This document shows, piece after piece, positions 36,516 through 59,708 of a stretch of 64,000 nucleotides of DNA. The stretch is from Modicisalibacter tunisiensis (lineage in GTDB: Bacteria > Pseudomonadota > Gammaproteobacteria > Pseudomonadales > Halomonadaceae), in contig NZ_JAGXFD010000001.1 in the NCBI RefSeq assembly GCF_020148005.1, forward strand, positions 2,743,593 through 2,807,592, given 5' to 3'. Every line of letters begins with the position of its first letter. The first letter of the stretch is position 1. The notes under the pieces are model-generated. The model did no database searches. It was not told where the DNA came from and saw only the letters and a list, made by a program, of their open reading frames with translations. Both the position numbers and the translations under genes were made by a program.

Positions 36516-36522
36516 GGACGCC

Positions 36523-37356: not shown

Positions 37357-39407
<2,051 letters not shown>

Positions 39408-39440
39408 CCCGAGGAGTCCCCGGGCTCGCAGGAGCAAATT

Positions 39441-39461
39441 GCGGGAGCGACTTCAGTCGCG
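39441..39461 (+). repeat. REP-like palindromic repeat, copy 1
   Basis: GCGGGAGCGACTTCAGTCGC plus one G; the core GCGAC-TTCA-GTCGC folds as a short hairpin. An identical 21-bp copy lies at 39537-39557. Both sit in the 203-bp gap between liuD and liuE. Confidence 0.8.
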
Positions 39462-39536
39462 ATGAACCGGCCTCCGGGCCCTTGCCGTCGGGGGTGAATG
39501 CCCTCCCACGACAAGCCTGGGGTGCCGGGCCGAACG

Positions 39537-39557
39537 GCGGGAGCGACTTCAGTCGCG
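39537..39557 (+). repeat. REP-like palindromic repeat, copy 2
   Basis: Identical over 21 bp to 39441-39461 and in the same orientation, 96 bp apart. Such GGGAGCGACTTCAGTCGC units are dispersed extragenic palindromes in several gammaproteobacteria and can affect mRNA stability between operon genes. Confidence 0.8.
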
Positions 39558-39610
39558 TTGCAACGCGTTGCGTGGAGTCATCACCCGCATCTTGCCACCA
39601 GGAGGTCCCA

Positions 39611-43316: not shown

Positions 43317-43523
43317 GGATCAACCCCTGTTATTTTAGGGAAGGGTTCATAACCCGGGCTTTCAACCGCCATAACCACGGTACGGGCCAATAGCCTTTCA
43401 GCCGTCACCACACATGTCGACGGCAAGGCCGTTTCAGGATTTACTTCGATTTTCAAATGCATGACGTGCTGCTCGTCAGTGGCCAAAAAGAATCAACGAT
43501 TGCAGGCACGTTTCAGGTATTGG

Positions 43524-44324
43524 CTACTGGCCAGGCTGTTCCCAGACGGGTCGACGCTTGCCGAGGAAGGCATCGATCCCCTCGCCTGCGTCGGGGCTCA
43601 TCATGTTTTCCGCCATCACATTGCCGGCGTAATCGTAGGCATCGGCCAGTACCATCTGACGCTGGGAATGGAACATGGACTTTCCGAAACGAACCGCCGC
43701 CGGACTCTTGCCGAGTATTTGATCGACCTTGTCAGCCACGGCAGCATCCAGGTTGTCGTCATCGGTAACAGCGCTCAACAGGCCCCAGTCAAAAGCCGTG
43801 TCCGCATCGATGAAATTGCCCGACACCAGCATGTCGAACGCCCGTTTGGGAGAGATGCTGCGTGACAGCGCGACGGCCGGAGTCGAGCAGAACAGTCCTA
43901 CATTGATGCCCGATACCGCGAAGCTGGCAGAACGGCCCGCGATGGCCAGGTCACAGCTGGCCACCAACTGGCACCCCGCCGCCGTGGCCATGCCCTGGAC
44001 CCTGGCGATGACCGGGACCGGCAGGGCCACGATACTCTGCATCACCCGGCTGCAGCTGCGAAACAATTCCTGGTAATAGGCCTTGTCGGGATTGGCACGC
44101 ATCTCCCGCAGGTCGTGTCCGGCACAAAAACCACGACCCTTGCCGGCGATAACCACACAGCGGACAGCAGGATCGCCCGCTAGCGTATCCAGCTCCCGCT
44201 GCAACGCGATCAGCATCGCTTGGGAAAGGGTGTTGAACTTGTCCGGACGATTCAGCGTGAGATAGACGGCTCCATCGCTCTCTTCCCTGAGAAGAATATC
44301 GTCCATGGTGTGACTGAGACTCAT
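43524..44324 (-). CDS. Crotonase-family protein (ECHDC3-like) lacking catalytic glutamates
   Basis: A 266-residue enoyl-CoA hydratase-like protein. The CoA/oxyanion segment GKGRGFCAGHDLREMRA and GMATAAGCQLVASCDLAIAGRSASFAVSGINVGLFCSTPAVALSR are typical of the ECHDC3 branch. The two Glu residues used by true hydratases are replaced (AAGCQL instead of GGGxE, and VGLFCSTP instead of xExxLGxxP). A simple water-adding role is therefore doubtful. It is 26 bp downstream of the OsmC gene and co-directional with the ligase. Confidence 0.8.
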   Translation of the reverse strand: MSLSHTMDDILLREESDGAVYLTLNRPDKFNTLSQAMLIALQRELDTLAGDPAVRCVVIAGKGRGFCAGHDLREMRANPDKAYYQELFRSCSRVMQSIVALPVPVIARVQGMATAAGCQLVASCDLAIAGRSASFAVSGINVGLFCSTPAVALSRSISPKRAFDMLVSGNFIDADTAFDWGLLSAVTDDDNLDAAVADKVDQILGKSPAAVRFGKSMFHSQRQMVLADAYDYAGNVMAENMMSPDAGEGIDAFLGKRRPVWEQPGQ

Positions 44325-44350
44325 ACATGCCTCGCGACAAAAGTAGATTT

Positions 44351-44800
44351 TTAAAGGTGATTTATCGTCACCTCGGCGGTGATCGAGTTTCGGATAAAAC
44401 AGTTCCGGTGAGCCCCGGCATGCATCCGGGATATTGCCTTCTGGTCCGGCATGGTATCACCACTGAAAGTGATGCGCGGTGACAGCTCGATACGCGTCAC
44501 TTCCCGCCCCTTTTTATCATTGCTCTCCAGATAGCCTACCGGATCATCTTCATAGACTTCGACCTGATAACCCTGAAACTCGGCGATAGCCAGAAAAAAC
44601 AGCATATGGCAGCTGGACACCGCACTGATCAGCATTTGCTCCGGGTCGGCACAGCCTGGATCGCCCTTGAATTCGGTCGACGCGGAAACATCGATCTGCT
44701 GGCCACCGTTCAATGTAACCCGGTGATTACGCGAATAGGTACTTGCATCGCTTTCGTGGGGAGCACGCTGCCAACGGATGACGGACTGATGGACTGACAT
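44351..44800 (-). CDS. OsmC-family thiol peroxidase-like protein
   Basis: A 149-residue OsmC/Ohr-fold protein. NGGQQIDVSASTEFKGDPGCADPEQMLISAVSSCHMLFFLAIAEFQG contains the two conserved Cys (GCADPE and SSCHM) that reduce organic hydroperoxides. The ATG at 44800 has GAGGTATTTCT upstream; the longer frame to 44902 lacks support. It heads the minus-strand crotonase-ligase group and suggests that the group handles reactive or peroxide-generating substrates. Confidence 0.82.
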   Translation of the reverse strand: MSVHQSVIRWQRAPHESDASTYSRNHRVTLNGGQQIDVSASTEFKGDPGCADPEQMLISAVSSCHMLFFLAIAEFQGYQVEVYEDDPVGYLESNDKKGREVTRIELSPRITFSGDTMPDQKAISRMHAGAHRNCFIRNSITAEVTINHL

Positions 44801-44876
44801 AGAAATACCTCCTGAGCATGCCCGCAGGCTATGCCATCCGAGGGTAGCCGTAAAACGACGATTGCTAACCCGTAAG

Positions 44877-44891
44877 ATTAGCTTATCTAAT
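44877..44891. promoter_or_regulatory. LysR-type palindrome upstream of the osmC-like gene
   Basis: ATTAG-CTTAT-CTAAT is a perfect interrupted palindrome with the T-N11-A spacing of LysR boxes, about 77 bp upstream of the OsmC-like start. It could be the site of the LysR protein at the end of the same gene group. Confidence 0.45.
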
Positions 44892-45087
44892 GCAAAGCTC
44901 ACCGGAAAGATCGCCGCCGGCCACGCGGCGTTATCATGGCGGGAGATAACGAGGACCAGGCAATGGAGCGAAAATAGATGAATGACAAAAAGTAAGCCAA
45001 ATACTTAGAAAGGGTCACTTTACCCCCTTGCATGGGTCCGGCTAGCCTGCATGCGTCATGAGATCACGCGGGACAGGGCGATTGAGC

Positions 45088-46509
45088 ATGAAGACCATTG
45101 AGGTTGAATACGCGATCATCGGTGCCGGCACCAGTGGACTGGGTGCCTATTCAAGGATCAGTCGCCAGACCGACAGCCTGGTGATGATCCAGGACGGCCC
45201 CTACGGTACCACCTGTGCGCGGGTTGGCTGCATGCCCAGCAAACTGTTGATCACTGCCGCCGACCATGCCCACCATTTGCACACTGGCGATTTCTTCGGG
45301 GTGCCCTCCTCGGGCCGCGTGGAAGGACGCAAGGTACTGGAGCGGTTGCGGCGAGAGCGCGATCATCGGTTCGTCGCCCGCAACCTCCGCTACATCGACA
45401 AGATTCCGAACCATCACAAGCTCGAGGGGCGCGCCCGGTTTATCGGGCCGGGGCGCCTGATGGTGGGTGAGTCGGTCGAGGTCAGGGCGGAAAAGTTCAT
45501 CCTCGCCTGCGGCTCGCGTCCCGCGATCAGCGAGGTCTTCAATCCCGTGATGTCCCGCGTCCTCACCAGCGACACGATATTCGAGCTGGAAGACCTGCCC
45601 CGTTCGATTGCCGTGATCGGCATGGGCGTCATCGCCCTGGAACTGGGCCAGGCGCTCCATCGACTGGGCGTCGACACGACCCTTTACGGGCGCTCCGGCA
45701 GGATCAACGCCCTCACCCACCCGATCATGCAGCGCCAGGCGCTCGAGGTGCTTTCCGCCGAACTGGACATCCAGCCATGTGGCCAGGTACTGAGCACCTG
45801 GGAAGACGCGGAAGGCGCCTGGATCGAGTATGAGCAGCCGGACGGCCAACGCATCACCAAGGTATTCGACAGGATCCTGGTCGCCATGGGGCGGGTGTCC
45901 AACCTGGACCGGCTGGGGCTGGAGCAAGCGGGTGTGGAGATCACGGACCGGGGCACGGTGAGTTTCGATCCGCACACGATGCGCTGCGGCAACCTGCCCC
46001 TCTTCATTGCCGGGGATGCCACCGATCACCTGCCAGTCTGGCACGAAGCCTATGACGAGGGACGAATCGCCGCCGACAATGCACTGAACTCCCCGGCCCC
46101 CGCCCCGGCAGGACGTCGACCGCCATTGATGGTCTTCTTCACCGATCCCCAGATCGCCATCATCGGCCAGAGCTTCCAGCAGCTTCAAGGCCGGGAGATC
46201 GTCATCGGTGAACTGCCGTTCACCAGCGCCCGCCATGTGGTCTGGAACAAGGTGCAAGGGCGTATTCAGGTCTACCTGGACGCACGAACCGACGTCATCC
46301 TGGGTGCCGAGTTGCTGGGATACCAGGCCGAGCACCTGGCACATCTGCTGGCCCTGGCCATCACGCATGGCATGACGGCGGAACAGGTACTGGCGATGCC
46401 CATCTACCACCCCAGTGCCGAAGAATTGCTGCGGGATGTGTTGATCGATGCCCGGAAAAAGCGCAAGCGACACGAAGCGGAGACAGTGAGCCTGACTACA
46501 CCAGCTTAA
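45088..46509 (+). CDS. Pyridine nucleotide-disulfide oxidoreductase, dihydrolipoamide dehydrogenase-like
   Basis: A 473-residue flavoprotein. AIIGAGTSGLGAYSRISRQ binds FAD, TTCARVGCMPSKLLI carries the redox-active disulfide (C-x4-C), IAVIGMGVIALELGQALHRLG binds NAD, and IAGDATDHLP contacts FAD again. The C-terminal YHPSAEELLRDVL replaces the usual HAHPTxSE, keeping His-Pro and the Glu. The frame continues to an ATG at 45058, but 45088 begins with the family N-terminus. There is no 2-oxoacid dehydrogenase nearby, so it is an orphan Lpd-like reductase; the partner is unknown. Confidence 0.82.
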   Translation: MKTIEVEYAIIGAGTSGLGAYSRISRQTDSLVMIQDGPYGTTCARVGCMPSKLLITAADHAHHLHTGDFFGVPSSGRVEGRKVLERLRRERDHRFVARNLRYIDKIPNHHKLEGRARFIGPGRLMVGESVEVRAEKFILACGSRPAISEVFNPVMSRVLTSDTIFELEDLPRSIAVIGMGVIALELGQALHRLGVDTTLYGRSGRINALTHPIMQRQALEVLSAELDIQPCGQVLSTWEDAEGAWIEYEQPDGQRITKVFDRILVAMGRVSNLDRLGLEQAGVEITDRGTVSFDPHTMRCGNLPLFIAGDATDHLPVWHEAYDEGRIAADNALNSPAPAPAGRRPPLMVFFTDPQIAIIGQSFQQLQGREIVIGELPFTSARHVVWNKVQGRIQVYLDARTDVILGAELLGYQAEHLAHLLALAITHGMTAEQVLAMPIYHPSAEELLRDVLIDARKKRKRHEAETVSLTTPA

Positions 46510-47012
46510 CGCTAGACCTCCATGAAAAAGTAACGGCACGCCCTCTGGCAGCATGCTTGAAAGGATCCGCACCACCTACGGGCCAGGAGTGCAAAGCTCT
46601 CATCGACCATCAGGTCAGCCAGACATACCTAGAATATAGGGAGAGGACAACTTCATCGCGATGCTCTGTCTAATCAGCAGTCCCGGCAATCGCGCCCTCA
46701 GTCAAGAATATTCAGGTGATGTATCGAAGCCTGATGACAGCGGCAGGCATTAGGCCATGTCAGATAAGAACCTGCGACGGCTGCAAAGCATCAACAACCG
46801 TCTCGAAAAAACCCGAGTGCCAGTAACGTTCAAACATCGATGCCACAGACAAAACCAGCCCCCGGATTCTCGGTACGCGATGACCGAGACCGGGACCATC
46901 TGCGAGAACCCCAGACCCCACCCGGTACTCACTGTGCTGAGGCAGTAGGGCTTATTTTCCAGCGCTTATTAAAAGCCGTGCTCAATGTTTAATGAGGGTT
47001 AAATTGAATAGC
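46510..47012. other. Gene-poor 500-bp gap before the AT-richer cassette
   Basis: Base composition drops from the high-GC flank toward the cassette that follows. A 63-codon plus frame (46757-46948) and a 60-codon minus frame (46750-46932) overlap here; neither has a ribosome-binding site or a recognisable family. I see no RNA gene. The gap likely marks the left boundary of an acquired segment. Confidence 0.4.
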
Positions 47013-47477
47013 ATGAATGATGGCATCGAGAACCCTGACTTTATCCTTCAACTGAGAAAATATTCTTCTCGGGCACGTCGTGACCGACGCCTCCAGGGTG
47101 GCAATGTCCGTACGATCACTCTCACAATCCAGTCAGAAAGCAAGGATAGCGTCACCATTGATGCAGTGATCGAAGATGGCATTATCCAGGAGGTGGGGTA
47201 TCGAGTTCGCGCCTGTTCACTGGCACAAGCGACAACGGCACTCGTTGCTGAACGTGCAGCTGGCTTAAACATGGAGTCACTATCAGCTATTGAGCAACAA
47301 GTGTCGCTGATTTTTCAAGACAAGCCACCTGATGACGGCGCGCTGATCTGGCCAGAATTGATGATGTTGCAAAACGCAGCAGCCATGCCTTCGCGCCATG
47401 AAGTTGCATTTCTGCCATTTCAGGCCCTGAAAAAACTATTGAGCACGGCGGGAGATGTGCATGCAGGCGTGACTTGA
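47013..47477 (+). CDS. Degenerate IscU/NifU-N-like protein
   Basis: About 154 residues (an ATG at 46992 adds seven). The fold pattern of the Fe-S scaffold is recognisable: VTIDAVIEDGIIQEVGYRVRACSLAQATTALVAERAAG corresponds to the strand-helix around the second scaffold Cys, and MPSRHEVAFLPFQALKKLL to the C-terminal helix. Only that middle Cys remains; the positions of the first and third ligands are not Cys. It cannot hold a cluster like IscU. It precedes an SQR-like gene by 51 bp, in lower-GC DNA, and probably belongs to the same operon. Confidence 0.65.
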   Translation: MNDGIENPDFILQLRKYSSRARRDRRLQGGNVRTITLTIQSESKDSVTIDAVIEDGIIQEVGYRVRACSLAQATTALVAERAAGLNMESLSAIEQQVSLIFQDKPPDDGALIWPELMMLQNAAAMPSRHEVAFLPFQALKKLLSTAGDVHAGVT

Positions 47478-47528
47478 AAACCAATTACCCTACATTCGGC
47501 CCAGGCAGGGCACTTCCGGAGAAACCAT

Positions 47529-48719
47529 ATGGTGAAGGATATCATTGTAGTGGGTGGCGGCATTGGTGGAACAATGACTGCCAACAACCTTGTTCGAAAA
47601 ATCTACCCCGAGATCAAAAGCGGAAAGGCACGCATCACCCTGATTTCCAACAGTCATTGGCATTACTACAAACCAGCATTCATGTACGTGGCATTTGGAA
47701 AGTTCTTCAAGAATGAACTAAGACGCCCCCTGGCATCCCTACTACGCCCGGAAATCAATTTCACACTTGATCAAGTAGAAGGATTTGAATTCAAAAACAG
47801 TCGATTAAGAATGCGTTCGGGTGACGTGCATGACTATGACTACCTGGTGGTCTCCACAGGCTGCATCCCCGCCCCGGAACGGATAGACGGTTTGCAGGAA
47901 GCGGGAGATCACTTCTACCAGCACAATCCGGCGCGACAGCTTTTTGAAAAAATCTCGACCATCGAAAAAGGTCGCATATTTATTGGTGTAACATTTCCCA
48001 AAACCCCGAACGTGCCCCATCAGTGCGGTATCGCACCGATAGAAACCACATTGATGCTGGATGAATTCTTACGTCAACGAGGGGTGCGCGACAAAATTGA
48101 ACTGGTGTACACTTACCCAACAATTTCTCAGCTAACTCGCAACTGCCTGTTCTTGCAGAAGCCCACCGGTGAAATATTGCCGTCGATTTTTGACTCAAAA
48201 AACATCAAGCACAAAAGAGGTTTCACCCTGGCCAGCGTTGACCCCGAAAACAATGTCGCCACTTCAGAAGAAGGCGACGAAGAAAACTTTGACATCCTGA
48301 TGCAAACGCCCCCCATCCGAGCCGTCGATGCAGTGCTTGACTCGAATATTTCAGAGTCGCCCAATCATGAAGGCTGGTTACCCACCGATCGCCAGTCACT
48401 GCAACTTGAAGGCTTTAATAACGTGTTCATCATGGGCGACACTGTTGACTTGCCCATCAGCAAAGCTGGAGGAAGTTGCCACAACCAGTCCCCTGTCATT
48501 TGCAACAATATTGCAGGATTGATGCGCATCGGGAAAACAGTCGATGAATACGATGGCAAAGTACAAGCCATTGCCCAAATGGGCCTGGAGGCAGGCATGC
48601 CTCTTTGGTACGACTATGATGAAGATGTAAAACCGACACCACCGACCAAGATTGGCGGGCTCATGCGCAAGAGCTTTAATCGTGGAGTGTACTGGTCTGT
48701 AGCTCGCGGCCTTATTTAA
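47529..48719 (+). CDS. Sulfide:quinone oxidoreductase-family flavoprotein
   Basis: A 396-residue protein of the SQR/FCSD group. VVGGGIGGTMTANNLVRKIY binds FAD, and WHYYKPAFMYVAFGK is the typical SQR segment. Candidate redox Cys are Cys112 (STGCIPAP), Cys166 (PHQCGIAP) and Cys317/Cys325 (GGSCHNQSPVICNN). FIMGDTVDLPISKAG contacts FAD, and the C-terminal amphipathic GGLMRKSFNRGVYWSVARG would bind the membrane. It should oxidise sulfide (or a related thiol) and reduce quinone. It lies 16 bp before the DUF1641 gene, a common SQR partner. Confidence 0.82.
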   Translation: MVKDIIVVGGGIGGTMTANNLVRKIYPEIKSGKARITLISNSHWHYYKPAFMYVAFGKFFKNELRRPLASLLRPEINFTLDQVEGFEFKNSRLRMRSGDVHDYDYLVVSTGCIPAPERIDGLQEAGDHFYQHNPARQLFEKISTIEKGRIFIGVTFPKTPNVPHQCGIAPIETTLMLDEFLRQRGVRDKIELVYTYPTISQLTRNCLFLQKPTGEILPSIFDSKNIKHKRGFTLASVDPENNVATSEEGDEENFDILMQTPPIRAVDAVLDSNISESPNHEGWLPTDRQSLQLEGFNNVFIMGDTVDLPISKAGGSCHNQSPVICNNIAGLMRIGKTVDEYDGKVQAIAQMGLEAGMPLWYDYDEDVKPTPPTKIGGLMRKSFNRGVYWSVARGLI

Positions 48720-48735
48720 ACAAGGAGAAAAACTC

Positions 48736-49182
48736 ATGAAAAATGATACAGCGGCCGCTTCCATACAGTCACTTGAGACTATACTTGAATCTTCACCGGC
48801 CCTGCAAGACCCTGCGACTTTAAAAGGCGTTGTTGAATTGATAGAAAAAGTCTCGCCCTTGCTTCAAGGACGTCGACTGCATAATATCGTTGACTTGCTA
48901 GCCGCAGCATCCGATGTCATTGAAATGACAGACGACGCCATGATTCAGAAACTCATGACACTCTATGACGACAGCATCGGAGGTGCCTGGAAAATCACGA
49001 GCGCACTTCAATATGCATCAGTTCGAGCGGGACAAAAAGAAGCTCCTCCGACGCTATGGAAAAGTGTCAGGCGGTTAAACAATGATGAGGATGCTCGTCG
49101 CGGGCTGGACACCACAATCAATCTAATGTCAGAGCTAGGGCGCCAGTCAAGAATCTCTGGCCAGCCTGTTTTTGAAGACTAG
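48736..49182 (+). CDS. DUF1641-family protein, SQR partner
   Basis: A 148-residue, mostly helical, soluble protein (LKGVVELIEKVSPLLQGRRLHNIVDLLAAASDVIEMTDDAMIQKLM, then GGAWKITSALQYASVRAG). DUF1641 proteins are often encoded next to SQR-type or formate-dehydrogenase genes, but their biochemical role is not established. AAGGAG precedes the ATG. It is the last gene of the AT-richer cassette. Confidence 0.72.
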   Translation: MKNDTAAASIQSLETILESSPALQDPATLKGVVELIEKVSPLLQGRRLHNIVDLLAAASDVIEMTDDAMIQKLMTLYDDSIGGAWKITSALQYASVRAGQKEAPPTLWKSVRRLNNDEDARRGLDTTINLMSELGRQSRISGQPVFED

Positions 49183-49731: not shown

Positions 49732-50230
49732 ATGAGGAAAATCGCCATTGATGCGGCAGACATCCGCATTCTGCGTGCACTTCAGCAGCATAGCCAGCTC
49801 AGCAAGACCAAGCTATCGGAACTGGTCAACCTGTCACCGACGCCATGCTGGATTCGCTTCTCTCGATTAAAGGAAGCCGGACTGATACGCGGATATCACG
49901 CAGATATCGCGCTCGACAGGATCGCGAACACCACCACGGTAATGGTAACCGTTTCGCTCGAGGGACATCGCAAGGAAAACTTCGAACGTTTCGAGAGTTA
50001 TATTTTCCAGGTCGATGAGATCGTCGAATGCATGACGACGGGGGGGCGGTATGGACTACGTCCTGAAAGTCGTGACGCCCAGCCTTTCCGCCTTTCAGCA
50101 AGTCATTGATCGGCTTCTTTCGGCAGAGCTGGGGATCGAACGCTACATGACCTACATCGCCACCCGAGAGATAAAATCGACGCAAGTCAACCTCGCCAAT
50201 CTAATGGTAATCAACAACGACAAAGCCTGA
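49732..50230 (+). pseudogene. Lrp/AsnC-family regulator with frameshift in a G7 run
   Basis: The N-terminal HTH is intact (IDAADIRILRALQQHSQLSKTKLSELVNLSPTPCWIRFSRLKEAGLIRGYHADI), and the effector domain starts normally (TTTVMVTVSLEGHRKENFERFE, then VDEIVECMTTGG). The frame then breaks. The expected continuation MDYVLKVVTPSLSAFQQVID and LGIERYMTYIATREIKSTQ is in another frame up to the TGA at 50228-50230. One extra base in the seven-G run at 50040-50046 explains it. As it stands the product ends after 125 residues, at 50109. It may be a true mutation, a phase-variable tract or a sequencing error. Confidence 0.85.
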
Positions 50231-50643: not shown

Positions 50644-51837
50644 ATGACAAGCGTATCACCCAGCAATGTAATCCAGATGGAAAGAAAGGCGGATTTCGGT
50701 TTCGGAACACAGGTCCGAAAATCTCCCTACTTCGATGCAACACTACGCTGGGGCGCAACAGCTTTCTCAGTATACAATCATATGTATATACCGCGTGACT
50801 TCGGAGACCCGGAACAGAACTTCTGGAACCTTGTCAACGAGGCCATCCTCTGCGATGTCGCCGCTGAACGGCAGGTAGAAATCACCGGTCCGGATGCGGC
50901 GAAGTTTGTGCAGAACCTGACCCCGCGCGACCTTTCCCAAATGGCTGTCGGGCAGTGCAAGTACATCCTGATCACCAATGCCGACGGCGGCATCCTCAAT
51001 GACCCCATTCTTCTGCGCCTGGCGGAAAATCATTTCTGGATCTCACTGGCTGACAGCGACATTCTGTTATGGGCACAGGGTGTCGCTGTCAACTCCAGCC
51101 TCGATGTCACCATTCGTGAACCCGATGTCTCACCCTTGCAATTGCAGGGCCCACAGTCCGGGGAGATCATGAAGTCACTCTTCGGAGACGACATCACGGA
51201 CCTGCGCTACTTCTGGCTTCGCGAGATCGAACTCGACGGTATCCCACTGATCGTCTCGCGCACCGGCTGGTCGAGTGAACTGGGCTATGAGCTGTATCTT
51301 CAAGACGGCTCCCGTGGCGACGAACTTTGGGAGAAAATCATGGCGGCAGGTCAGCCCTTCGGGCTTCGTCCCGGCCATACCTCTTCCATTCGCCGCATCG
51401 AAGGCGGCATGCTCTCCTATCACGCCGATGCGGACATCGACACCAATCCCTACGAACTGGGGATGGACCGTCTAGTGAACCCGGATATGGAGTCTGATTT
51501 CATCGGCAAGGCCGCCTTGAAGCGCATCCGTGACAATGGCGTGAGCCGCAAGCAGGTCGGGCTGCGTATCGAAGGGGCACCTCTCAAAGGACCAAACACT
51601 ACCTTCTGGCCCCTGAATCATGATGGTGAAACTGTCGGCAAGGTTACTTCCGCCGTCTACTCCCCGAGGCTTGATCAGAACATCGCCCTGGCCATGGTGG
51701 CTGTTGACCATGCTCGGATCGGAACTGAGCTGGAGGTGCAGACTCTGTCGGGACCGGCAAAGGCTTTGGTTGTCGAAAAGCCGTTCTTCGACCCCAAGAA
51801 GAAAATTGCGGCATCCGCTTGCACGTCAGCCAACTGA
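50644..51837 (+). CDS. dmdA: DmdA-type tetrahydrofolate-dependent methyltransferase (DMSP demethylase candidate)
   Basis: A 397-residue GcvT-fold protein. It resembles DMSP demethylase rather than true glycine-cleavage T protein: FGFGTQVRKSPYFDATLRWGATAFSVYNHMYIP (residues 18-50), CDVAAERQVEITGPDA (70-85), NLTPRDLSQMAVGQCKY, HFWISLADSDILLWA (130-144) and NPYELGMDRLVN (268-279). DmdA transfers a methyl of dimethylsulfoniopropionate to THF. The following genes oxidise methyl-THF to formate, supporting a catabolic demethylase. No glycine-cleavage P or H genes are near. Another methylated substrate remains possible. AAGGTG supports the ATG at 50644. Confidence 0.75.
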   Translation: MTSVSPSNVIQMERKADFGFGTQVRKSPYFDATLRWGATAFSVYNHMYIPRDFGDPEQNFWNLVNEAILCDVAAERQVEITGPDAAKFVQNLTPRDLSQMAVGQCKYILITNADGGILNDPILLRLAENHFWISLADSDILLWAQGVAVNSSLDVTIREPDVSPLQLQGPQSGEIMKSLFGDDITDLRYFWLREIELDGIPLIVSRTGWSSELGYELYLQDGSRGDELWEKIMAAGQPFGLRPGHTSSIRRIEGGMLSYHADADIDTNPYELGMDRLVNPDMESDFIGKAALKRIRDNGVSRKQVGLRIEGAPLKGPNTTFWPLNHDGETVGKVTSAVYSPRLDQNIALAMVAVDHARIGTELEVQTLSGPAKALVVEKPFFDPKKKIAASACTSAN

Positions 51838-52119
51838 ACGAGGAAGGTGGGCTACTGCGAAGTCGGGAATGGTGGTCCGGGATCGCAGGCCGATACCGTC
51901 TATAAGAATTTCGGATCACCGTCCCAAACAATCCCTGAATGCTTGAGGGCTATTGAAACACCGATAACCATCAATGAATGCCTTTATCACAAGGTATCTC
52001 CTGGAGGATGCTGTCCAGTCCCCGGGGATCACGATGGCATACGATTTTCAATAGACGCATCAATAATTCAGGAAGCAAGAATTGGCTCCACGGTGGTGCT
52101 ACCGTGGTAGGAGAAGCTT

Positions 52120-52596
52120 GTGTATTCCGTTCGCCTTTGGGCCGTACGGCACGCGAGACTGCTTGAACTTACCTATCGAGCCTTCGAGCCGGTAATCGTC
52201 AAACTGCATCCGTTGTGGAAAGCGGTTGGCTACCAGCGTGCAGAAAAGCCAGTTGGCAAGCTGGAGGAGCTCAGCAAGGGGCTACTTTTCGATTGCAAGA
52301 TGTGTGGTCAATGCATTCTCAGCTCTACCGGCATGTCCTGTTCCATGAACTGCCCAAAGACCATGCGAAACGGACCCTGTGGCGGTGTCCTTCAGAACGG
52401 GAATTGCGAGGTCTATCCCGAGAAACGCTGTGTCTGGGTTGAAGCCTGGGAGGGGAGCCAGAAGATGAAAGGGGGCGACAAGATACAGGTGGTACAACTG
52501 CCGGTTGATCATCGTCTTGAAGGAAGCTCCTCCTGGCTGCGCGTGGCTCGCGAGGCATCGGAACAGCAGGCAGTACAAAAAGGAGGCTCGCAGTGA
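52120..52596 (+). CDS. Methylenetetrahydrofolate reductase C-terminal-domain protein (MetV-like), Cys-rich
   Basis: A 158-residue protein starting at GTG 52120, after TAGGAGAAG. The middle holds eight Cys: positions 59, 62, 65, 74, 78, 87, 96 and 104 (DCKMCGQCILSS, MSCSMNCPKTMRNGPCGG). This is the pattern of the MTHFR_C/MetV domain, which binds zinc and/or an Fe-S cluster and partners with MetF in MetVF-type reductases. Its stop overlaps the GTG start of the MetF gene. It suggests that the reductase differs from the simple enterobacterial MetF and may run in the oxidative direction. The 281-bp gap before it shows no gene. Confidence 0.8.
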   Translation: MYSVRLWAVRHARLLELTYRAFEPVIVKLHPLWKAVGYQRAEKPVGKLEELSKGLLFDCKMCGQCILSSTGMSCSMNCPKTMRNGPCGGVLQNGNCEVYPEKRCVWVEAWEGSQKMKGGDKIQVVQLPVDHRLEGSSSWLRVAREASEQQAVQKGGSQ

Positions 52597-53606
52597 GCGT
52601 TAACGTTGGGCCTGAAGCTGGCCGCATGATATCCGACACAACGGGCTATAGCTCTACCGGACGGCTCGAACGGGTGCTGAAGTCAGGGCATTTTGCCGTC
52701 ACCACTGAACTGGCGCCCCCCGATTCGGCCAATCCGGAGGAGGTCTATGCCCGGGCGCGAATCTTCGACGGTTACGTTGACAGCATGAACGCCACCGATG
52801 GCTCGGGGGCCAACTGCCATATGTCCAGCGTCGCGATGTGTGCGCTGCTGGCACGAGAAGGTTACGAGACAGTGATGCAAATCTCCTGTCGGGACAGGAA
52901 CCGGATTGCCATTCAAGGGGATGTACTGGGAGGGGCGGCGCTGGGCATCAATAATATTCTCTGCCTGACGGGGGATGGGGTACAAGCGGGAGATCATCCG
53001 GAAGCCAAGCCGGTATTCGATCTGGATTCCTTGTCGCTGCTCGAGACGGTCTCCAGGTTACGCGACAAGCATGTATTTGCCAGCGGAAGGACGCTCAGTG
53101 AGCCGCCGAGAGTGTTCCTCGGTGCGGCAGAAAACCCGTTCGTCCCCCCCTTTGATTTCCGTCCTTACCGGCTGGCGAAAAAGATTGCTGCAGGTGCTCA
53201 GTTCATTCAGACGCAATACTGCTTCGACCTGCCCCGCTTCCGGAATTTCATGGACCGATCCCGAGACCTGGGATTGCTGGACAAGTGTTTCATCCTGCCC
53301 GGTGTGGGGCCGCTGGCCTCGGCACGTGCGGCAGACTGGATGCGAAGAAAAGTTCCGGGCATTCATATTCCGGATGCCATCATCAAGCGCCTGGAAGGTG
53401 CCCAGGATCAAAAGGCAGAGGGTCGAAACATCTGCATTGAACTGATTCAGCAATTGCGGGAGATCGAAGGGGTCAGCGGTATACACGTGATGGCTCATCG
53501 CCAGGAGTCTTCCGTTGCCGGGATTATTGAACGATCCGGGGTACTGGGCGGCCGAGTGCCATGGGTGCCCTCCCGCGAATCCGCTTTCGAGGGAGATTAT
53601 GCTTGA
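52593..53606 (+). CDS. metF: Methylenetetrahydrofolate reductase, MetF-type
   Basis: A 337-residue TIM-barrel flavoprotein. FAVTTELAPPDSANPEEVYARA opens the barrel, then VMQISCRDRNRIAIQGDVLGGAALGINNILCLTGDG, GAQFIQTQYCFDLPRF and PGVGPLASARAADWM. It starts with GTG at 52593, overlapping the MetV-like stop (GTGA), with AAGGAGG upstream. Together they would interconvert 5-methyl- and 5,10-methylene-THF; here oxidation of the methyl group delivered by the DmdA-type enzyme is the likely direction. Confidence 0.9.
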   Translation: MSVNVGPEAGRMISDTTGYSSTGRLERVLKSGHFAVTTELAPPDSANPEEVYARARIFDGYVDSMNATDGSGANCHMSSVAMCALLAREGYETVMQISCRDRNRIAIQGDVLGGAALGINNILCLTGDGVQAGDHPEAKPVFDLDSLSLLETVSRLRDKHVFASGRTLSEPPRVFLGAAENPFVPPFDFRPYRLAKKIAAGAQFIQTQYCFDLPRFRNFMDRSRDLGLLDKCFILPGVGPLASARAADWMRRKVPGIHIPDAIIKRLEGAQDQKAEGRNICIELIQQLREIEGVSGIHVMAHRQESSVAGIIERSGVLGGRVPWVPSRESAFEGDYA

Positions 53607-53749
53607 TCATACGGCATTCCAGTTCAGAGCATCAGTCGGCAACCCGATAATCGGCTACGTCCCGGGCCCTTCTTTGCAGACGAGGAACGGGAGCTCGGGA
53701 TGCCCTCCAACCAGCGGCAAACAACCATTACTCTAGTAGGGTCTCTGTC

Positions 53750-54625
53750 ATGACAACTTCCCCGGACCAGAACAATCAATTCGTCCTGACTGTCAGCTGC
53801 GAAACCGGACCAGGCATCGTTTCCGGCATTACCTCTTACCTTTCCGAACGAGGGGGTAACATCATTGAACTGGCCCAGTTCGATGACAAGGTCAGCGGTC
53901 AGTTCTTCATGAGGAGCGTATTCAGTCTCCTGCCGGATTCGCTGCATACCTTTGAAGACCTGCGTTCCGGGTTCGTTGATCTGGCAGAGAAGTTCTCCCT
54001 GAAGTGGGCCATGCATGATGCCCACATCCCGACCAAGGTCTTGATCATGGTATCTCGATTCGACCATTGTCTGGTCGATCTTCTCTACCGTCATCGCAAG
54101 GGAGAGTTGAACATAGAGATCACTGCGGTGGTATCCAATCACCTGGATCTTCGGCCAATCGCCGAACGAGAAGGCATACGCTTTGTCTATCTCCCTGTGA
54201 CAAAGGACACCAAGCCGGAGAAGGAGGCTGATCTCCTCAATATTGTCAATGAGACCGGTACGGACCTGGTCGTACTGGCACGCTACATGCAGGTGTTGTC
54301 CGACAACCTCTGCGAGAAGCTCCACGCCCGAGCCATCAACATCCATCACTCCTTCCTGCCTGGCTTCAAGGGTGCCAAGCCCTATCACCAGGCGTTCGAT
54401 CGTGGTGTCAAGCTGATCGGAGCTACCGCGCACTACGTGACTGCGGATCTGGATGAGGGCCCGATCATCGAGCAATCCGTGCAACCGGTAAACCACGCCT
54501 ACTATCCGGAAGAGCTGGTGGCCCTTGGGCGAGATACCGAAACGATAGCGCTGGCTCGCGCCGTGAAACTGCATGCCGAGCACCGGGTCTTTCTGTCGGG
54601 CAACAAGACCATCATTTTCAAATAG
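53750..54625 (+). CDS. purU: Formyltetrahydrofolate deformylase
   Basis: A 291-residue protein. The N-terminal ACT domain is residues 9-90 (FVLTVSCETGPGIVSGITSYLSERGGNIIELAQF). The C-terminal formyltransferase-like domain has VVLARYMQVLSD, the catalytic Asn-His region INIHHSFLPGFKGAKPYHQAF and the catalytic Asp in GATAHYVTADLDEGPIIEQ. It hydrolyses 10-formyl-THF to formate and THF, regenerating the methyl acceptor. It lies 13 bp before folD, which makes its substrate. Confidence 0.94.
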   Translation: MTTSPDQNNQFVLTVSCETGPGIVSGITSYLSERGGNIIELAQFDDKVSGQFFMRSVFSLLPDSLHTFEDLRSGFVDLAEKFSLKWAMHDAHIPTKVLIMVSRFDHCLVDLLYRHRKGELNIEITAVVSNHLDLRPIAEREGIRFVYLPVTKDTKPEKEADLLNIVNETGTDLVVLARYMQVLSDNLCEKLHARAINIHHSFLPGFKGAKPYHQAFDRGVKLIGATAHYVTADLDEGPIIEQSVQPVNHAYYPEELVALGRDTETIALARAVKLHAEHRVFLSGNKTIIFK

Positions 54626-54638
54626 AGGCTGACGTGCC

Positions 54639-55499
54639 ATGGCTCAATTAATAGACGGAAAGCAGCTTTCGAACCAGGTACTTCAGAAGGTGGCCTCCGA
54701 AGTCGAGTACCTCAAGGGCGAGTATGGTGTGGTGCCGACACTCGCGGTGGTGCTGGTCGGAGAGGATCCTGCCAGCCAGGTGTATGTGAGAAACAAGGTG
54801 AAGCGGGCGAAAGAGGCAGGGATGGGGTCCATAGAGTACCGTCTCGACACGGAAACCACGCAGGGGGACCTGAACCAGCTGGTTGCTCAACTGAACAATG
54901 ACCCTCAAGTGCACGGCATCCTGGTACAGCTGCCACTCCCGCCACACCTCGATGAGGACGAGGTCATCGCCTCGATCGATCCGGCCAAGGATGTCGATGG
55001 CTTTCACCCTCTCAATGTCGGGGCGCTTGCTGCCGGGCAGGCATCGCTGGTGCCGTGCACTCCCCAGGGCTGCATGATCATGCTGCGTCAAGTCCATCAG
55101 GACTTGAGCGGCAAGCATGCCGTGGTGGTGGGTCGTTCCAACATCGTTGGCAAACCGATGATGGCACTTCTGTTGCAGGCCGACTGTACCGTCACCATGG
55201 CACATTCTCGCACACGGGATATCGAGTCGCTGTGCCGCAACGCCGATATCGTGGTTGCCGCCGCCGGCCGGAAGGAACTCGTCAACGCCGACTGGATCAA
55301 GCCGGGTGCCACGGTCATCGATGTCGGTATCAATGCCATCGAAGCGGATGGCAAGAGAAAGCTTGTGGGTGACGTGGCGTTTGCCCCGGTCTCCGAGACA
55401 GCGGGAGCTATTAGCCCGGTGCCCGGTGGAGTGGGCCCGATGACCATCGCCTGCCTGCTCCTGAACACGACGCGTGCCGCCAGACGCCAGCTGGCCTGA
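54639..55499 (+). CDS. folD: Bifunctional methylene-THF dehydrogenase/methenyl-THF cyclohydrolase
   Basis: A 286-residue enzyme. [26 protein letters not shown] holds the catalytic Tyr/Lys, followed by [47 protein letters not shown] (NADP site) and the C-terminal [13 protein letters not shown]. It converts methylene-THF to 10-formyl-THF in two steps, linking MetF and PurU. Most genomes have a housekeeping folD elsewhere; this copy belongs to the C1-oxidation cluster. Confidence 0.95.
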
Positions 55500-55537
55500 C
55501 CCTCGCTGACCGGCGAAATGACGCCTCGTATCCACAG

Positions 55538-55567
55538 CCCCCGGGCCGGGCAATCGGCTCGGGGGCC
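55538..55567. terminator. Bidirectional terminator between folD and dabA
   Basis: GCCCCCGGGCCG (55538-55549) pairs with CGGCTCGGGGGC (55556-55567) with one G:T position, between convergent genes; CTGTTCTCTC follows. Confidence 0.75.
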
Positions 55568-55647: not shown

Positions 55648-58131
55648 CTAGGCGGCGACCCAGGCCCCTCCCCGACAGGCAAGGATCTCGCCGCTTTCGT
55701 CATCGAGGGTGAACAGGTGCAGCCAGCCGTTCTCCACCAGAGAGCGCAGTATCTCGTGTCGCCCCACGATCGAGTCGACGGCCTCGGGCGGCGCCGCCAG
55801 GTAGGCACTCAGGCGCAGGGGCTCGTGCCGCCAGCGCTCACCGTCGTGCAGCGACTGCATCGGCAGGCCGATCCGCAGGTCACCGCCGTTGCCCTCGAAC
55901 ACGCCGATATGCCCACCGACCACGTTGTGCAGCACCTTGTTGCCGCTGCCCAGCTTGCGGTTGTCCAGGGTGGAGGCGTTGTACTGCATGTTGATCCAGT
56001 GGGCGACGATCAGGGGCGCGGTCATGATCTGTTCCAGCCGCGCGAAGTCGGGGTCGGTGCGCCAGTCGTAGTCGTGCAGGAAGCTGCGCCCATCCAGGTC
56101 GATCGGTGCGGTGACACGGCGCGGCGCGGCGATGAAGCTGGCATTGTTGGCCAGCCCCCACTCCGGGCGGGTCTGCGACCAGTCGGCGCCGCGGCGATCG
56201 AGGCTCTCCTCGAGTTCCGCCGCGTCACCCGACAGGCCGAGCCGCGGGGCACGCTCGCGTCGCGCCTCGGCCCCGGCCTGGTCGAGCCACGAACGCTCCT
56301 CCTCGCTCAGCGAGAAGGCATCCGCCGCGCCCTCCGGCAGCTCGATGCGATCGGTGATGGTGTAATGCAGCGCCGGTATGAAACGGGTCTCTTCCGGGAT
56401 GACAAGGCCGGCCTCGGCCAGTGCGTCGCGCAGCGCGGGATCATTGAGCAGCCGAGCCAGGGCACGGACCGAGACCTCCCCCGACTGCCCGCCGCAGGCG
56501 CCGCACTCGAGCCCCGCGGCATGCGGATTGTTGGCGCTGTGGCTGCCGTGCCCCACCAGCAGCACCCGGGGCGCGAAGCTTTCGGTGAGCCCCATGGTAC
56601 CCAGCACGGTCCGAGCGAGCGCCGCCTTGTCGGCGAGGCTCAACGCCTCGCCGCTATCCCGCCAGTGCCAGCGGAGTTCGTCCATGACGAGCGGGCCGCG
56701 CTTGCCCCTGGCGTCCAGCGAGCGCCGCAGGAGCTTGCCGGCGTACAGCAGCCCCCCGGTCTCCACGGCGGTGAAGGTGGCGCTCGCCGCCCGGCTCCAC
56801 TCCTGCAGGCGCGCCTGCCAGTTCAGCCGCCGGGCCGAGCGCCGGCCACCCTCGGCCGAACCGCTGCTCAGGGTCACCCGGGGGGCCAGCAGGCCCGGCA
56901 GGTGGGGCTGGGCCAACTCGGCACCACCCGGTCGATACTCCATCGGCAGGCCGAAGAAGCCGGCGAATCCCAGGGTCTGGATGGCCGGACTCTGGTGCTC
57001 CAGCGCCCGTCGCAGCGGCTCGGAGCGCACGTCGATGCAGAACACCGCCTGCAGTTGCGGCGATGTGGCGCTCGCACTCCCCGCCTTTACCGACTCCTCC
57101 AGGGCCCGATGCAGCGGCTGCTGATAGGCCAGTTCGCTGGCGAGCTGCCATACCCACAGGGGTTGCTGGGCGCGACGATGCCGCTCGATGCGCGCCGGCA
57201 GCGCCACCAGCTCGGCATGCCACAGACGCGTCAGCCGGTCGGCCTGGTCGGGCTGTTCCGTGCGGATGTAACGCCACAGCACCAGCTCCCAGGCCAGGCG
57301 GATGGCCAATAGGCTGCGCATGTCGGAAGGGTGACGTGGCGTCTCGGGCGACGCCAGTTCCCGTTGCCAGTCCTGATAGGCCACCCAGGCGGCCCAGCCG
57401 TTGATGTCCAGCAGCAGCGCCTGGGCATAGCCGCTCAAGCGGCTGGCATCGAGGTCCAGTTCGGCGACCGCAGCCTGGAAGAGGCCGGCCTCGGCAGTCG
57501 GCAGGGTCTCGAAATAGTGCCGCAGCCGCGGCTCCCCCATCAGGATGGCGATGCCGCGGTCCTTGAGGGTCATGTCCCGCCAGTGGCCATAGAGCCGCTT
57601 GCCGGCGGGCGCATTCAGCCGTGCGGCATTGAGCGGTCCGTCCTCCTGGAAGAAGGCGGCACAGAACTGGCTGATCTGGTGGGTGATCTCGTCGCGCCAG
57701 GCCATCTTGTGCTGCCGGTCACGGCGCGCATCCACCAGGTCGCTGATGTTGTGCCAGTGCGGCAGCCGGCCGAGTTCCTCGACGACCCCCAGCAGGTTCC
57801 GGTAGGGCCCGCGATAGCCGAGCCGCTCCGCCGCCTGGTCCAGGTGATGATCGGTGATCTCGCCACGCTGCCGACGCCCCAGGTAATGGCTCGGCGGCAT
57901 CAGGCAGTGCACATTGCCCAGCGCCGAAAGCCGGGCCGAGACGCTGGCGATGTGTTCCCCACGCATCGCCCAGAAGGGGCTGGTCGCGATCAGCCGGTCC
58001 AGGGGCCAGTTCGGCGCCACGCTGGCACAGGCCTGGTCCAGGGCCTGCTCATGCGCCGGCGTCAGCGGCGGGTACTGGCTCTCCTCGACGTCGGAGATCC
58101 ATGCCATCCTGGTGTTGTCGAGATTCGTCAT
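55648..58131 (-). CDS. dabA: Inorganic carbon transporter subunit DabA (DUF2309)
   Basis: An 827-residue soluble subunit with a beta-carbonic-anhydrase-like zinc site. Ligands appear as Cys365/Asp367 in FCIDVRSEPLRR, and His528 plus Cys543 (or Cys546) in GHGSHSANNPHAAGLECGACGG. MTAPLIVAHWINMQYNAST and GNKVLHNVVGGHIGVFEGNGGDLRIGLPMQS are family signatures. With DabB it forms an energy-coupled CO2-to-bicarbonate trap. The ATG at 58131 gives the correct N-terminus. The stop-free frame continues further upstream, but that part lies on top of dabB in another frame. Confidence 0.94.
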   Translation of the reverse strand: MTNLDNTRMAWISDVEESQYPPLTPAHEQALDQACASVAPNWPLDRLIATSPFWAMRGEHIASVSARLSALGNVHCLMPPSHYLGRRQRGEITDHHLDQAAERLGYRGPYRNLLGVVEELGRLPHWHNISDLVDARRDRQHKMAWRDEITHQISQFCAAFFQEDGPLNAARLNAPAGKRLYGHWRDMTLKDRGIAILMGEPRLRHYFETLPTAEAGLFQAAVAELDLDASRLSGYAQALLLDINGWAAWVAYQDWQRELASPETPRHPSDMRSLLAIRLAWELVLWRYIRTEQPDQADRLTRLWHAELVALPARIERHRRAQQPLWVWQLASELAYQQPLHRALEESVKAGSASATSPQLQAVFCIDVRSEPLRRALEHQSPAIQTLGFAGFFGLPMEYRPGGAELAQPHLPGLLAPRVTLSSGSAEGGRRSARRLNWQARLQEWSRAASATFTAVETGGLLYAGKLLRRSLDARGKRGPLVMDELRWHWRDSGEALSLADKAALARTVLGTMGLTESFAPRVLLVGHGSHSANNPHAAGLECGACGGQSGEVSVRALARLLNDPALRDALAEAGLVIPEETRFIPALHYTITDRIELPEGAADAFSLSEEERSWLDQAGAEARRERAPRLGLSGDAAELEESLDRRGADWSQTRPEWGLANNASFIAAPRRVTAPIDLDGRSFLHDYDWRTDPDFARLEQIMTAPLIVAHWINMQYNASTLDNRKLGSGNKVLHNVVGGHIGVFEGNGGDLRIGLPMQSLHDGERWRHEPLRLSAYLAAPPEAVDSIVGRHEILRSLVENGWLHLFTLDDESGEILACRGGAWVAA

Positions 58132-58133
58132 GG

Positions 58134-59708
58134 TCAAGCCTCCCCGGTAGTGGCGTGCAGTCGTTTGGCCTTGATCCGAGCGGGCAGCGGGTGTGGCCAG
58201 AGTCTCAGGGTGCTGCGGGTGACCCACTCGTCCAGGTAGAACCCGGCGTAGCAGTAGAGGTTGAGCGTCTGTACCCAGCGAAGGTGCAGGCCATGGCGCT
58301 GCAGGCCGTAGCCCGCGAACAGCAGCACGAACAGCGTGCTCATCCAGAGATCCGCCCACAGCGGCGCCGTGTGCTCGGCGGGGGGCAGCAGGACGGCGAA
58401 CAGCGACTTGAGACCGAAATAAGCGAGCATCACCAGCGCGGCCAGGCCGAGGAAGCCCGCCCCGTCCCCCGACGCCAGCGGACCGCGCCGCTCGGCCAGC
58501 AAGGCCGTCAGCGCCAGGGTCAACAGCACCCAGGGGCTGACCACCGCGAAGGCGCTCGAGTCGAAGCCGGCGCGCACGACAACCGCCAGGCCCGCCACCA
58601 GGGCAACGCTGGTGGCACCGGCCGCCAGCCACTGTGCCGGCGTCGGGCGACGGCCCGGCGCCTGCCGGCGCAGCAGATCCTCCTGCACGGCCTCGCCGGA
58701 ACTCAGGAAGGCGTAGGCCTTGTAGCAGGAGTGCGCCAGCAGATGCAGCAGCGCCAGCTCCACCAGTCCCAGAGCGATCTCGACCAGCATCAGCCCCATC
58801 TGGGCGCTGGTCGACCACGCCAGTCGGACCTTGATGCTGATGCGCGTCATCATGACCAGCGCCGCCAGTACGCTGCCGAGACCCGCGACGATCAGGATCA
58901 GCGCCCGGGCCGGCGTGGACTGCAGCAACAGCGGCGAGAACAGCAGCAGCAGATAGCCGCCGAGGTTGATCACGCCCCCGTGCAACGCCGCCGAGACCGG
59001 CGTGGGCGCCTCGACCACCTGGATCAGCCAGCCATGCAAGGGCAGCTGGGCGCACTTGATCAGCGCCGCCAGCGCGAGCAGGCAGGCCGCCGCCTGTTCC
59101 CCGACGGACAGGTTCCCGCCCGGCGCCGCATAGGCGCCGACGATCACGCTGATCCGGGCGCTGTCGTGGTGGAGGTACAACAGCAGGAAGGCCCCCAGGG
59201 CACACAGCTCGGCGGCGCGGGCGAAGAGAAACTTCTTGTGGGCTGCCAGGGCCGCACGGGGCCGGTCGGGGTAGAACATCAGCAGCTGATGCATGGCCAG
59301 GCTGATGCCCAGCCAGGCGGCCAGGAACATCGGAAGAAAGTCGCTCAGCACCGCCACGCTGACCGCCGCGAATACCGTCTGGACGAGCGTGACGAAGCGC
59401 TGCTGGCGAGGCTCGCCCTGCAGATAGGTGGCGCTGTAGCGCACCACCACGAAGGCAATGAAGTTGGCGAGCAGCAGCATGATCAGTTGCAGGGGCGTCG
59501 CCTGCCACACGCCGATCACCGCCGGCAGCCTCTGTGCCAGGCCCAGCGCCAGCAGCAGCGCCGAGAGACACAGCCCGGCCAGGGTGGCGGTCCGGGCCGT
59601 GCGCCAGGCGCGTGCACTCGTCTGGCGGCCGCTTGCCAGGGCGCCCAGCACCAGGATGGCAGGCACCAGGGAAAGCAGGATGGTGGGCAACAGCTCGTTC
59701 CAATGCAT
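58134..59708 (-). CDS. dabB: Inorganic carbon transporter membrane subunit DabB (NuoL-like)
   Basis: A 524-residue, about 13-helix protein of the NADH dehydrogenase subunit 5/antiporter family (FVVVRYSATYLQGEPRQQRF, PLHGWLIQVVEAPTPVSAALHGGVINLGGYLLLLF, STSAQMGLMLVEIALG, AHSCYKAYAFLSSG). These are proton-pathway motifs with conserved Lys/His. Two bases separate its stop from the dabA start. Without complex I genes, this pairing is diagnostic for the DAB bicarbonate system, energised by the cation gradient. Confidence 0.93.
   Translation of the reverse strand: MHWNELLPTILLSLVPAILVLGALASGRQTSARAWRTARTATLAGLCLSALLLALGLAQRLPAVIGVWQATPLQLIMLLLANFIAFVVVRYSATYLQGEPRQQRFVTLVQTVFAAVSVAVLSDFLPMFLAAWLGISLAMHQLLMFYPDRPRAALAAHKKFLFARAAELCALGAFLLLYLHHDSARISVIVGAYAAPGGNLSVGEQAAACLLALAALIKCAQLPLHGWLIQVVEAPTPVSAALHGGVINLGGYLLLLFSPLLLQSTPARALILIVAGLGSVLAALVMMTRISIKVRLAWSTSAQMGLMLVEIALGLVELALLHLLAHSCYKAYAFLSSGEAVQEDLLRRQAPGRRPTPAQWLAAGATSVALVAGLAVVVRAGFDSSAFAVVSPWVLLTLALTALLAERRGPLASGDGAGFLGLAALVMLAYFGLKSLFAVLLPPAEHTAPLWADLWMSTLFVLLFAGYGLQRHGLHLRWVQTLNLYCYAGFYLDEWVTRSTLRLWPHPLPARIKAKRLHATTGEA

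Follow-up and report, generated by a model that had tools for sequence, protein, structure and literature searches.

A methyltransferase gene and its one-carbon module

The gene examined here, termed X, lies in a 64,000-nucleotide stretch of the Modicisalibacter tunisiensis genome (contig NZ_JAGXFD010000001.1, positions 2,743,593 to 2,807,592; hereafter the window). X (50644–51837, + strand) encodes a protein of the tetrahydrofolate (THF)-dependent methyltransferase family, and the GCV_T and GCV_T_C profiles together with phylogenetic trees placed it as a sister group of DmdA, the dimethylsulfoniopropionate (DMSP) demethylase. The preliminary description of this DNA had listed five genes on one strand, and all five were found as open frames on the + strand, each in the family named there. 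Those downstream of X encode a MetV-like protein (52120–52596; PF12225, 87 bits), the methylene-THF reductase (MTHFR) MetF (52593–53606; PF02219, 124 bits), the formyl-THF deformylase PurU (53750–54625; TIGR00655, 326 bits), and the methylene-THF dehydrogenase/cyclohydrolase FolD (54639–55499; NF010785, 459 bits), the last two above their model cut-offs. Since MetF, FolD, and PurU were all present by profile matches, the gene set leading from methyl-THF to formate is complete, as had been proposed. A terminator-like hairpin of 13 pairs, 11 of them GC, lies 3′ of folD (55537–55566, +); the consensus scan returned seven such sites in the region, compared with 5.0 expected.

The earlier assignment of a MetVF-type reductase was borne out by the PF12225 match and by the position of metV directly 5′ of metF, with a 4-base overlap. 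In addition, the NGPCGG motif and eight Cys residues were invariant in an alignment of 15 MetV sequences. MetV gave no match to sequences of the PDB up to E = 1. The window MetF is distant from the Escherichia coli type: its top NCBIfam model was PRK08645 (207 of 453 bits), the E. coli-type model PRK09432 gave 31 bits, and no cut-off was passed. The genome encodes a second MTHFR, which scored 290 bits compared with 124 bits for the window copy, and, counting the window copies, three PurU proteins above the cut-off and two FolD proteins. The window set is therefore additional to one-carbon (C1) genes located elsewhere.

Family placement of X

X has the GCV_T fold and the C-terminal barrel (PF01571, 152 bits; PF08669, 77 bits). 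On the NCBIfam DmdA model NF009133 it scored 377.9 bits, under the cut-off of 410 bits, above which proteins scored 462–712 bits. The closest solved structure in a PDB sequence comparison was DmdA (3tfh, 268.6 bits), followed by GcvT (1yx2, 161.1 bits). Trees were built from 48, 56, and 58 rows, with the DmdA of Phaeobacter inhibens included from the second tree and that of Ruegeria pomeroyi in the third. In all three, which contain long branches including the Pelagibacter ubique DmdA row, X formed its own supported group apart from the clade holding the studied DmdAs (P. ubique 3tfh, P. inhibens, and R. pomeroyi). Forcing the window X into the DmdA clade cost 75 log units in the approximately unbiased (AU) test (p = 1.1e-10), although this p value is weakened because the groups compared (16 versus 40 rows) were set after the 48-row tree was known.

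Alignment of 28 X rows with DmdA (P. ubique numbering) indicated both kinship and separation. Asn119 of X, like Asn107 of P. ubique DmdA, replaces an Asp of GcvT that we take to be the catalytic residue of that enzyme, and several N-terminal residues common to X and DmdA are missing from GcvT. On the other hand, Cys70 (Ala in one row), Ser/Thr211-Glu212-Leu/Ile213, and Arg250 of X stand where DmdA has Trp58, Lys/Arg199-Gln200-Gly201, and Glu238, respectively, and these positions are near-invariant within each group. His245 and His260 of X likewise correspond to Cys233 and Gly248 of DmdA.

The identification of X as DmdA was rejected: the protein scored under the NF009133 cut-off and lay outside the DmdA clade, and residues conserved in DmdA were replaced. 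The preliminary DmdA-type label, if read as a DMSP demethylase, was thus not supported. Its identification as GcvT was also rejected, on scores of 162.8 against a cut-off of 235.85 bits (TIGR00528) and 183.5 against 300 bits (NF001567) and on the Asp-to-Asn replacement. The preliminary description would have counted a grouping of X with GcvT-like, non-DmdA clades against its reading; phylogenetic placement agreed with only half of this, in that X fell outside the DmdA clade but was not among GcvT proteins. On sequence grounds, X is a sister family of DmdA and is neither DmdA nor GcvT. Its closest relatives are in Halomonadaceae, with the highest identity (89%) in Bisbaumannia pacifica.

Neighbouring genes, distribution, and co-occurrence with DmdA

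Conservation around X was investigated in the best 80 of 505 X matches in the genome collection (77–89% identity to the window X). These loci are not independent, as some share one genome (e.g., L020–L022), and a gene was counted as near when it lay within 9 kb of X. An Lrp regulator was near X in 67 loci, an OsmC-family protein in 57, a crotonase in 56, and an acyl-CoA ligase in 55; the last three together (the trio) were found in 48 loci. A C1 gene (MetV, MetF, PurU, or FolD) was near X in 19 loci, the trio plus a C1 gene in 12, and a BCCT transporter in 11. The X locus is thus larger than five genes, with Lrp, OsmC, crotonase, and CoA ligase belonging to a conserved group; the gene list of the preliminary description was right in its five members and did not include the partners at 41676–44902 or the Lrp gene at 49732.

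In the window, the trio lies on the − strand. The ligase (41676–43316) belongs to the PRK08162 subfamily (NF006020, 904.6 bits; cut-off 677). The crotonase-superfamily protein (43524–44324) belongs to PRK08139, named enoyl-CoA hydratase at NCBI (NF006008, 411 bits; cut-off 313). In an alignment with two annotated DmdD sequences, the crotonases of the window, Nitrincola, Leisingera, P. inhibens, and L162 lacked both glutamates of DmdD that are presumably its catalytic, hydratase-type residues. The OsmC-family protein (44351–44902; PF02566, 49 bits) has two Cys residues conserved in all five aligned sequences, and most relatives begin some 34 residues later. On the + strand, a dihydrolipoyl-dehydrogenase-like flavoprotein (45058–46509; NF004939, 536 bits; cut-off 435) belongs to a cluster found in 8 of the 80 loci, and a similar protein occurs in L225. 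The Lrp/AsnC regulator (49732–50230, +) is split over two frames, as the Lrp of L004 matched 49732–50046 and 50042–50221 in different frames. Relative to a 163-residue homologue, it is frameshifted near a run of seven G, which may be a sequencing error or a real loss of regulation.

C1-bearing loci numbered 15 among the 16 or 17 gammaproteobacterial loci and four among the alphaproteobacterial ones (L017, L020, L021, and L044, two of which are one genome), and the order of the C1 genes near X differed between the two classes. The link between X and C1 genes accordingly consists of these 15 loci and of a few in alphaproteobacteria, where the genes are ordered differently. For example, a Rhodobacterales locus (L044) reads FolD-PurU-X-OsmC-crotonase-ligase-MetV-MetF-Usp-BCCT, with Usp named from L020. 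A Nitrincola locus (L079) has, in one row, X, a MetF-like protein, FolD, PurU, OsmC, crotonase, and ligase; the name MetF is weak there, since the protein had no Pfam match and a 41–42% relative, at 24.7, was barely over the cut-off of 24. In P. inhibens P51 and Loktanella salsilacus, plasmids carry the genes in the order Lrp, X, OsmC, enoyl-CoA hydratase, and acyl-CoA synthetase. Among 18 further X loci, 13 had at least one trio gene. C1 genes also lie by X relatives in L227, L229, and Lichenihabitans psoromatis, in which a plasmid (L126, 4892–14969) encodes a 59% relative with MetF, PurU, and FolD. In L159, which has 29% GC and comes from a genome of 1.3 Mb, X adjoins a TRAP transporter and a different crotonase and ligase (17–18% identity to those of the window). 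In L220 (4432–10100), a gammaproteobacterial X (77%) lies by genes for a MetF-like protein, a pterin-binding methyltransferase, and a RACo-type corrinoid activator.

As a control, 14 loci of true DmdA were cut from X-bearing genomes with about 9 kb on each side; all are alphaproteobacterial. MetV, MetF, PurU, FolD, and OsmC were found in none of the 14, BCCT in six, an enoyl-CoA-hydratase match (31–32%) in two, and a ligase match in one. OsmC linkage therefore contrasts clearly between X and true-DmdA loci. Conversely, neither true DmdA nor DmdC was near X in any of the 80 loci, so that, judged by DmdC, X showed no linkage to acuI or dmdBCD, AcuI itself not having been a query. In one locus outside the 80 (L161), X and a DmdA-type gene are about 7 kb apart.

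True DmdA (564–712 bits) was present in 14 of 22 genomes that had been picked for carrying X, in which the window-type genes scored 366–382 bits. These 14 are all the alphaproteobacteria of the set (13 Rhodobacterales and Aestuariispira), and the eight without true DmdA are seven Halomonadaceae and Nitrincola. It is less likely that X and DmdA do an identical job, because the two coexist in 14 of 14 alphaproteobacterial genomes. Besides X, the window's own genome has only two distant relatives of 28–29% identity.

In a genome survey, in which X-type was defined as at least 64% identity read from match tables, such genes were found in 19 of 385 alphaproteobacterial genomes, four of them of only 1.3–1.4 Mb, and in 7 of 369 gammaproteobacterial genomes, that of the window counted. 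None of 13 same-genus genomes had an X-type gene, one of them having a 52% relative; the gene was present in 1 of 23 genomes of the family's other genera and 1 of 21 other genomes of the order. GC content was 0.49–0.63 across 43–55 kb of the window compared with 0.64–0.72 on both sides, with an extra low bin (0.51) at 61 kb; the ligase gene is mostly outside the low-GC stretch. The position of X in this stretch and its absence from 13 of 13 same-genus genomes are consistent with transfer, by which the X cluster was likely acquired, and they make the earlier remark that a demethylation route is unexpected in Halomonas a fair one.

Further features of the window were as follows. A LysR-type regulator near the GcvA subfamily (40599–41546, −; NF008352, 257 bits, under the cut-off of 288) may mark the cluster edge; in L004 and L225, a relative adjoins the ligase. 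The genes that separate the dihydrolipoyl-dehydrogenase-like gene from Lrp (46992–49182) encode a SufU-like, a sulfide-quinone-reductase-like, and a short unassigned protein and have about 49% GC; among the loci compared for them, only Halomonas cerina L010 shares this set. Methylcrotonyl-CoA carboxylase-like and HMG-CoA-lyase genes for leucine breakdown (34908–40513) flank the cluster. At 55648–59708 (−), DabA (780.8 bits) and a NuoL-like protein form an inorganic carbon transporter of the DabAB type, next to a LysR gene.

Proposed role of X and comparison with known systems

Gene content, families, order, conservation, and the separation of X from DmdA are direct observations, from which we infer each catalytic step and the direction of the pathway. 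We consider it reasonably probable (about 0.6) that X is a THF-dependent, non-DmdA methyltransferase whose main substrate is not DMSP but another small carboxylate of zwitterionic form, either a sulfonium or a quaternary ammonium compound. The doubt of the preliminary description over the true substrate is in line with this. X would transfer one methyl group from this compound to THF, yielding 5-methyl-THF and a thioether or tertiary-amine acid. MetVF would then convert methyl-THF to methylene-THF, FolD would convert methylene-THF to formyl-THF, and PurU would release formate and THF. Because hydrolysis by PurU is irreversible, the flow of C1 units would be toward formate. The leftover acid may be activated by the ligase to a CoA ester, on which the crotonase, not a classical hydratase, would act next. 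OsmC, together with the dihydrolipoyl-dehydrogenase-like protein in halomonads, may clear a reactive thiol or peroxide by-product. Because a ligase and a crotonase lacking the hydratase glutamates are near X, X probably yields a carboxylic acid, which then continues as its CoA ester without a linked dehydrogenase.

More tentatively, X and the trio may represent an undescribed second route of demethylation, perhaps demethiolation, whose zwitterionic substrate is not accepted by DmdA, e.g., dimethylsulfonioacetate (DMSA) or another sulfonium. Such a route would operate beside DmdA in roseobacters, in some alphaproteobacteria with genomes of 1.3–1.4 Mb, and, by transfer, in halophiles having their own MetVF oxidation.

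Several observations weigh against this interpretation of X and its pathway. C1 genes accompany X in only 4 of about 63 alphaproteobacterial loci, no clear excess over 0 of 14 true-DmdA loci, and the control cannot separate X from DmdA on this point because it is entirely alphaproteobacterial. Thirteen of the 80 loci, some on short contigs, have neither the trio nor a C1 gene. Of the 18 further loci, the gammaproteobacterial L221–L224 have no partners and L220 has only the MetF-like gene; of ten others with X of at least 63% identity (L159–L168), five (L159, L160, L161, L163, and L165) lack the queried partners. In several halomonad loci, MetV has no adjacent MetF. The Lichenihabitans relative has a GlcD-like oxidase, an aminotransferase, and an amino-acid ABC transporter in place of the trio, and this points to differing substrates across the wider X group. 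On the NCBIfam 3-(methylthio)propionyl-CoA ligase model the window ligase scored 304 of 822 bits and is thus outside the NCBIfam DmdB family; because it is so far under this cut-off, a DmdB-like label would draw solely on the P. inhibens dmdA operon. Finally, AlphaFold models of X and MetV, each from an alignment of 15 sequences confined to the window and the 80 loci, were too poor for use (pLDDT 47.2 and 46.5, respectively).

DMSA was weighed as a specific substrate. Its demethylation by X would yield methylthioacetate and then the CoA ester, from which the crotonase would displace methanethiol (MeSH) at C2; as this acid has no beta carbon, the route could do without a dehydrogenase. The X operon, which combines a ligase with a crotonase lacking the hydratase glutamates and has no DmdC, would suit such a two-carbon acid. 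PMC7221440 describes MeSH release by R. pomeroyi given DMSA, states with reference to Reisch 2008 that DMSA is not accepted by DmdA, and proposes a not yet recognised demethylation/demethiolation route in which C2 is attacked; it also reports that Halomonas HTNK1 and Sulfitobacter EE-36 use DMSA with MeSH or dimethyl sulfide not above controls. The R. pomeroyi DSS-3 genome, assigned to this strain through a 100% match with its megaplasmid across 3117 bases, is without X, its top matches having 43% and 39% identity, and for this reason its MeSH from DMSA cannot be explained by X. DMSA was therefore dropped as a firm substrate; it remains one candidate among several, and we regard it as unlikely to be the substrate. 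The 39% match is the R. pomeroyi DmdA, and the 43% match groups with a demethylase in a dmdBCD operon of Marivivens. This further DmdA-like clade (L261, 8743–9846; L127, 7980–9083) lies in a full dmdBCD operon in Marivivens sp. LCG002 and near transporter-like genes in R. pomeroyi DSS-3, and is a possible candidate for the DMSA activity of the latter.

That X is a genuine DMSP demethylase of a divergent DmdA clade, with the ligase and crotonase replacing DmdB and DmdD and with DmdC elsewhere, appears rather improbable. DmdA is the nearest characterised family to X, and the window ligase is about equally near two AMP-binding proteins of P. inhibens, one from the dmdA operon (50%) and one from an X operon of this roseobacter (53%). 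Some BCCT transporters, of the type near X in 11 loci, import DMSP (PMC13270143, accessible part), and divergent SAR92 DmdA candidates peripheral to clades A–E come from strains able to use DMSP as the sole sulfur source (PMC10746254, accessible part). Against this stand the DmdA cut-off and clade, the replacement of Trp58, Lys/Arg199-Gln200-Gly201, and Glu238, the presence of true DmdA in all 14 X-bearing alphaproteobacteria, the lack of DmdC near X in 80 loci, and the crotonase without the two DmdD glutamates.

A GcvT-like role in amine oxidation, in which X would form methylene-THF from an aminomethyl donor, is very unlikely. It would agree with the GCV_T fold and with a 50% relative (L116/L117) whose gene adjoins one for a dimethylglycine-dehydrogenase-like protein, as read by eye from the sequence; however, X shares the Asp-to-Asn replacement with DmdA, MetF would be pointless if the product were methylene-THF, and no amine oxidase was among the recurrent neighbours in the 80 loci. 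Least likely of all is O-demethylation of a methoxylated aromatic acid, in which the ligase and crotonase would act as in hydroxycinnamate breakdown: the superfamily includes the THF-dependent O-demethylases LigM and DesA, and a ligase with a crotonase resembles ferulate pathways, but X scored only 63 and 75 bits on the LigM and DesA models compared with 378 on DmdA, and no aromatic genes were recognised among the recurrent neighbours covered by the annotation, which did not extend to every neighbour.

If X is a non-DmdA methyltransferase as proposed, it bears on surveys that deduce DMSP demethylation from dmdA-like genes. Such surveys could overcount by including a distinct family that shares the fold, coexists with DmdA, and has an operon of its own, and this family would indicate that a further methylated compound takes part in marine methyl and sulfur cycling. 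MetVF, known from acetogens, would also seem to serve oxidation in organisms that are not acetogens, for which oxidising methyl-THF poses an energetic puzzle (E0′ about −200 mV; PMC8515935).

Searches of a literature collection that covered few subscription journals turned up no report of the X operon and no paper pairing DmdA with PurU or DmdA with OsmC; nor is the operon described in the accessible parts of PMC5395565, PMC6309047, PMC10746254, PMC11306105, PMC8515935, PMC7221440, PMC9769926, and PMC13270143. Hernandez et al. 2020 (PMC7487153) recognised 'non-DmdA' homologues near but separate from DmdA, a group into which X probably falls; the accessible part of that paper describes no operon, substrate, or C1 module for it.

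X resembles DmdA in superfamily, domain order, the Asp-to-Asn replacement, a YNHM-type N-terminal motif, and the expected product methyl-THF. Identity was 34.5–37.4% between P. ubique DmdA and the X rows, 37.7–45.3% between the window X and 15 roseobacter-type DmdA loci, and 38.1% with P. inhibens DmdA (PGA1_RS19020). The operons differ, that of X having Lrp, OsmC, and a crotonase without hydratase glutamates and no dmdC. In R. pomeroyi, a 330-residue open reading frame of the size expected for acuI lies directly 3′ of dmdA, and a dmdA-acuI order is given in the accessible part of PMC5395565. The P. inhibens operon on pPGA1_262 comprises dmdC, dmdD, a ligase (AMP-binding protein), and dmdA; deletion of dmdA in strain DSM 17395 abolished the effect of DMSP on lag time (PMC11306105, accessible part). 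Like the X operon, it has a demethylase, a PRK08162-like ligase, and a crotonase side by side, whereas the X operon has no acyl-CoA dehydrogenase, lacks the two glutamates in its crotonase, and has OsmC and Lrp in addition.

The MetFV of Clostridium ljungdahlii has the NGPCGG motif, two [4Fe4S] clusters, and metV upstream of metF; it was assayed by methyl-THF-dependent viologen reduction, and the distribution of the type is mainly in anaerobes (PMC8515935, accessible part). The window pair is similar in gene order and motif, its eight Cys residues would suffice for two [4Fe4S] clusters, and its metV/metF overlap is as in Moorella thermoacetica. Unlike the acetogen type, it occurs in halomonads and roseobacters by a demethylase-like gene, where its use would be oxidative. 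Demethylases coupled to THF-linked oxidation are known in LigM-MetF-LigH and Cmu-MetF-FolD-PurU, and these involve other methyltransferase families and other substrates than those of X.

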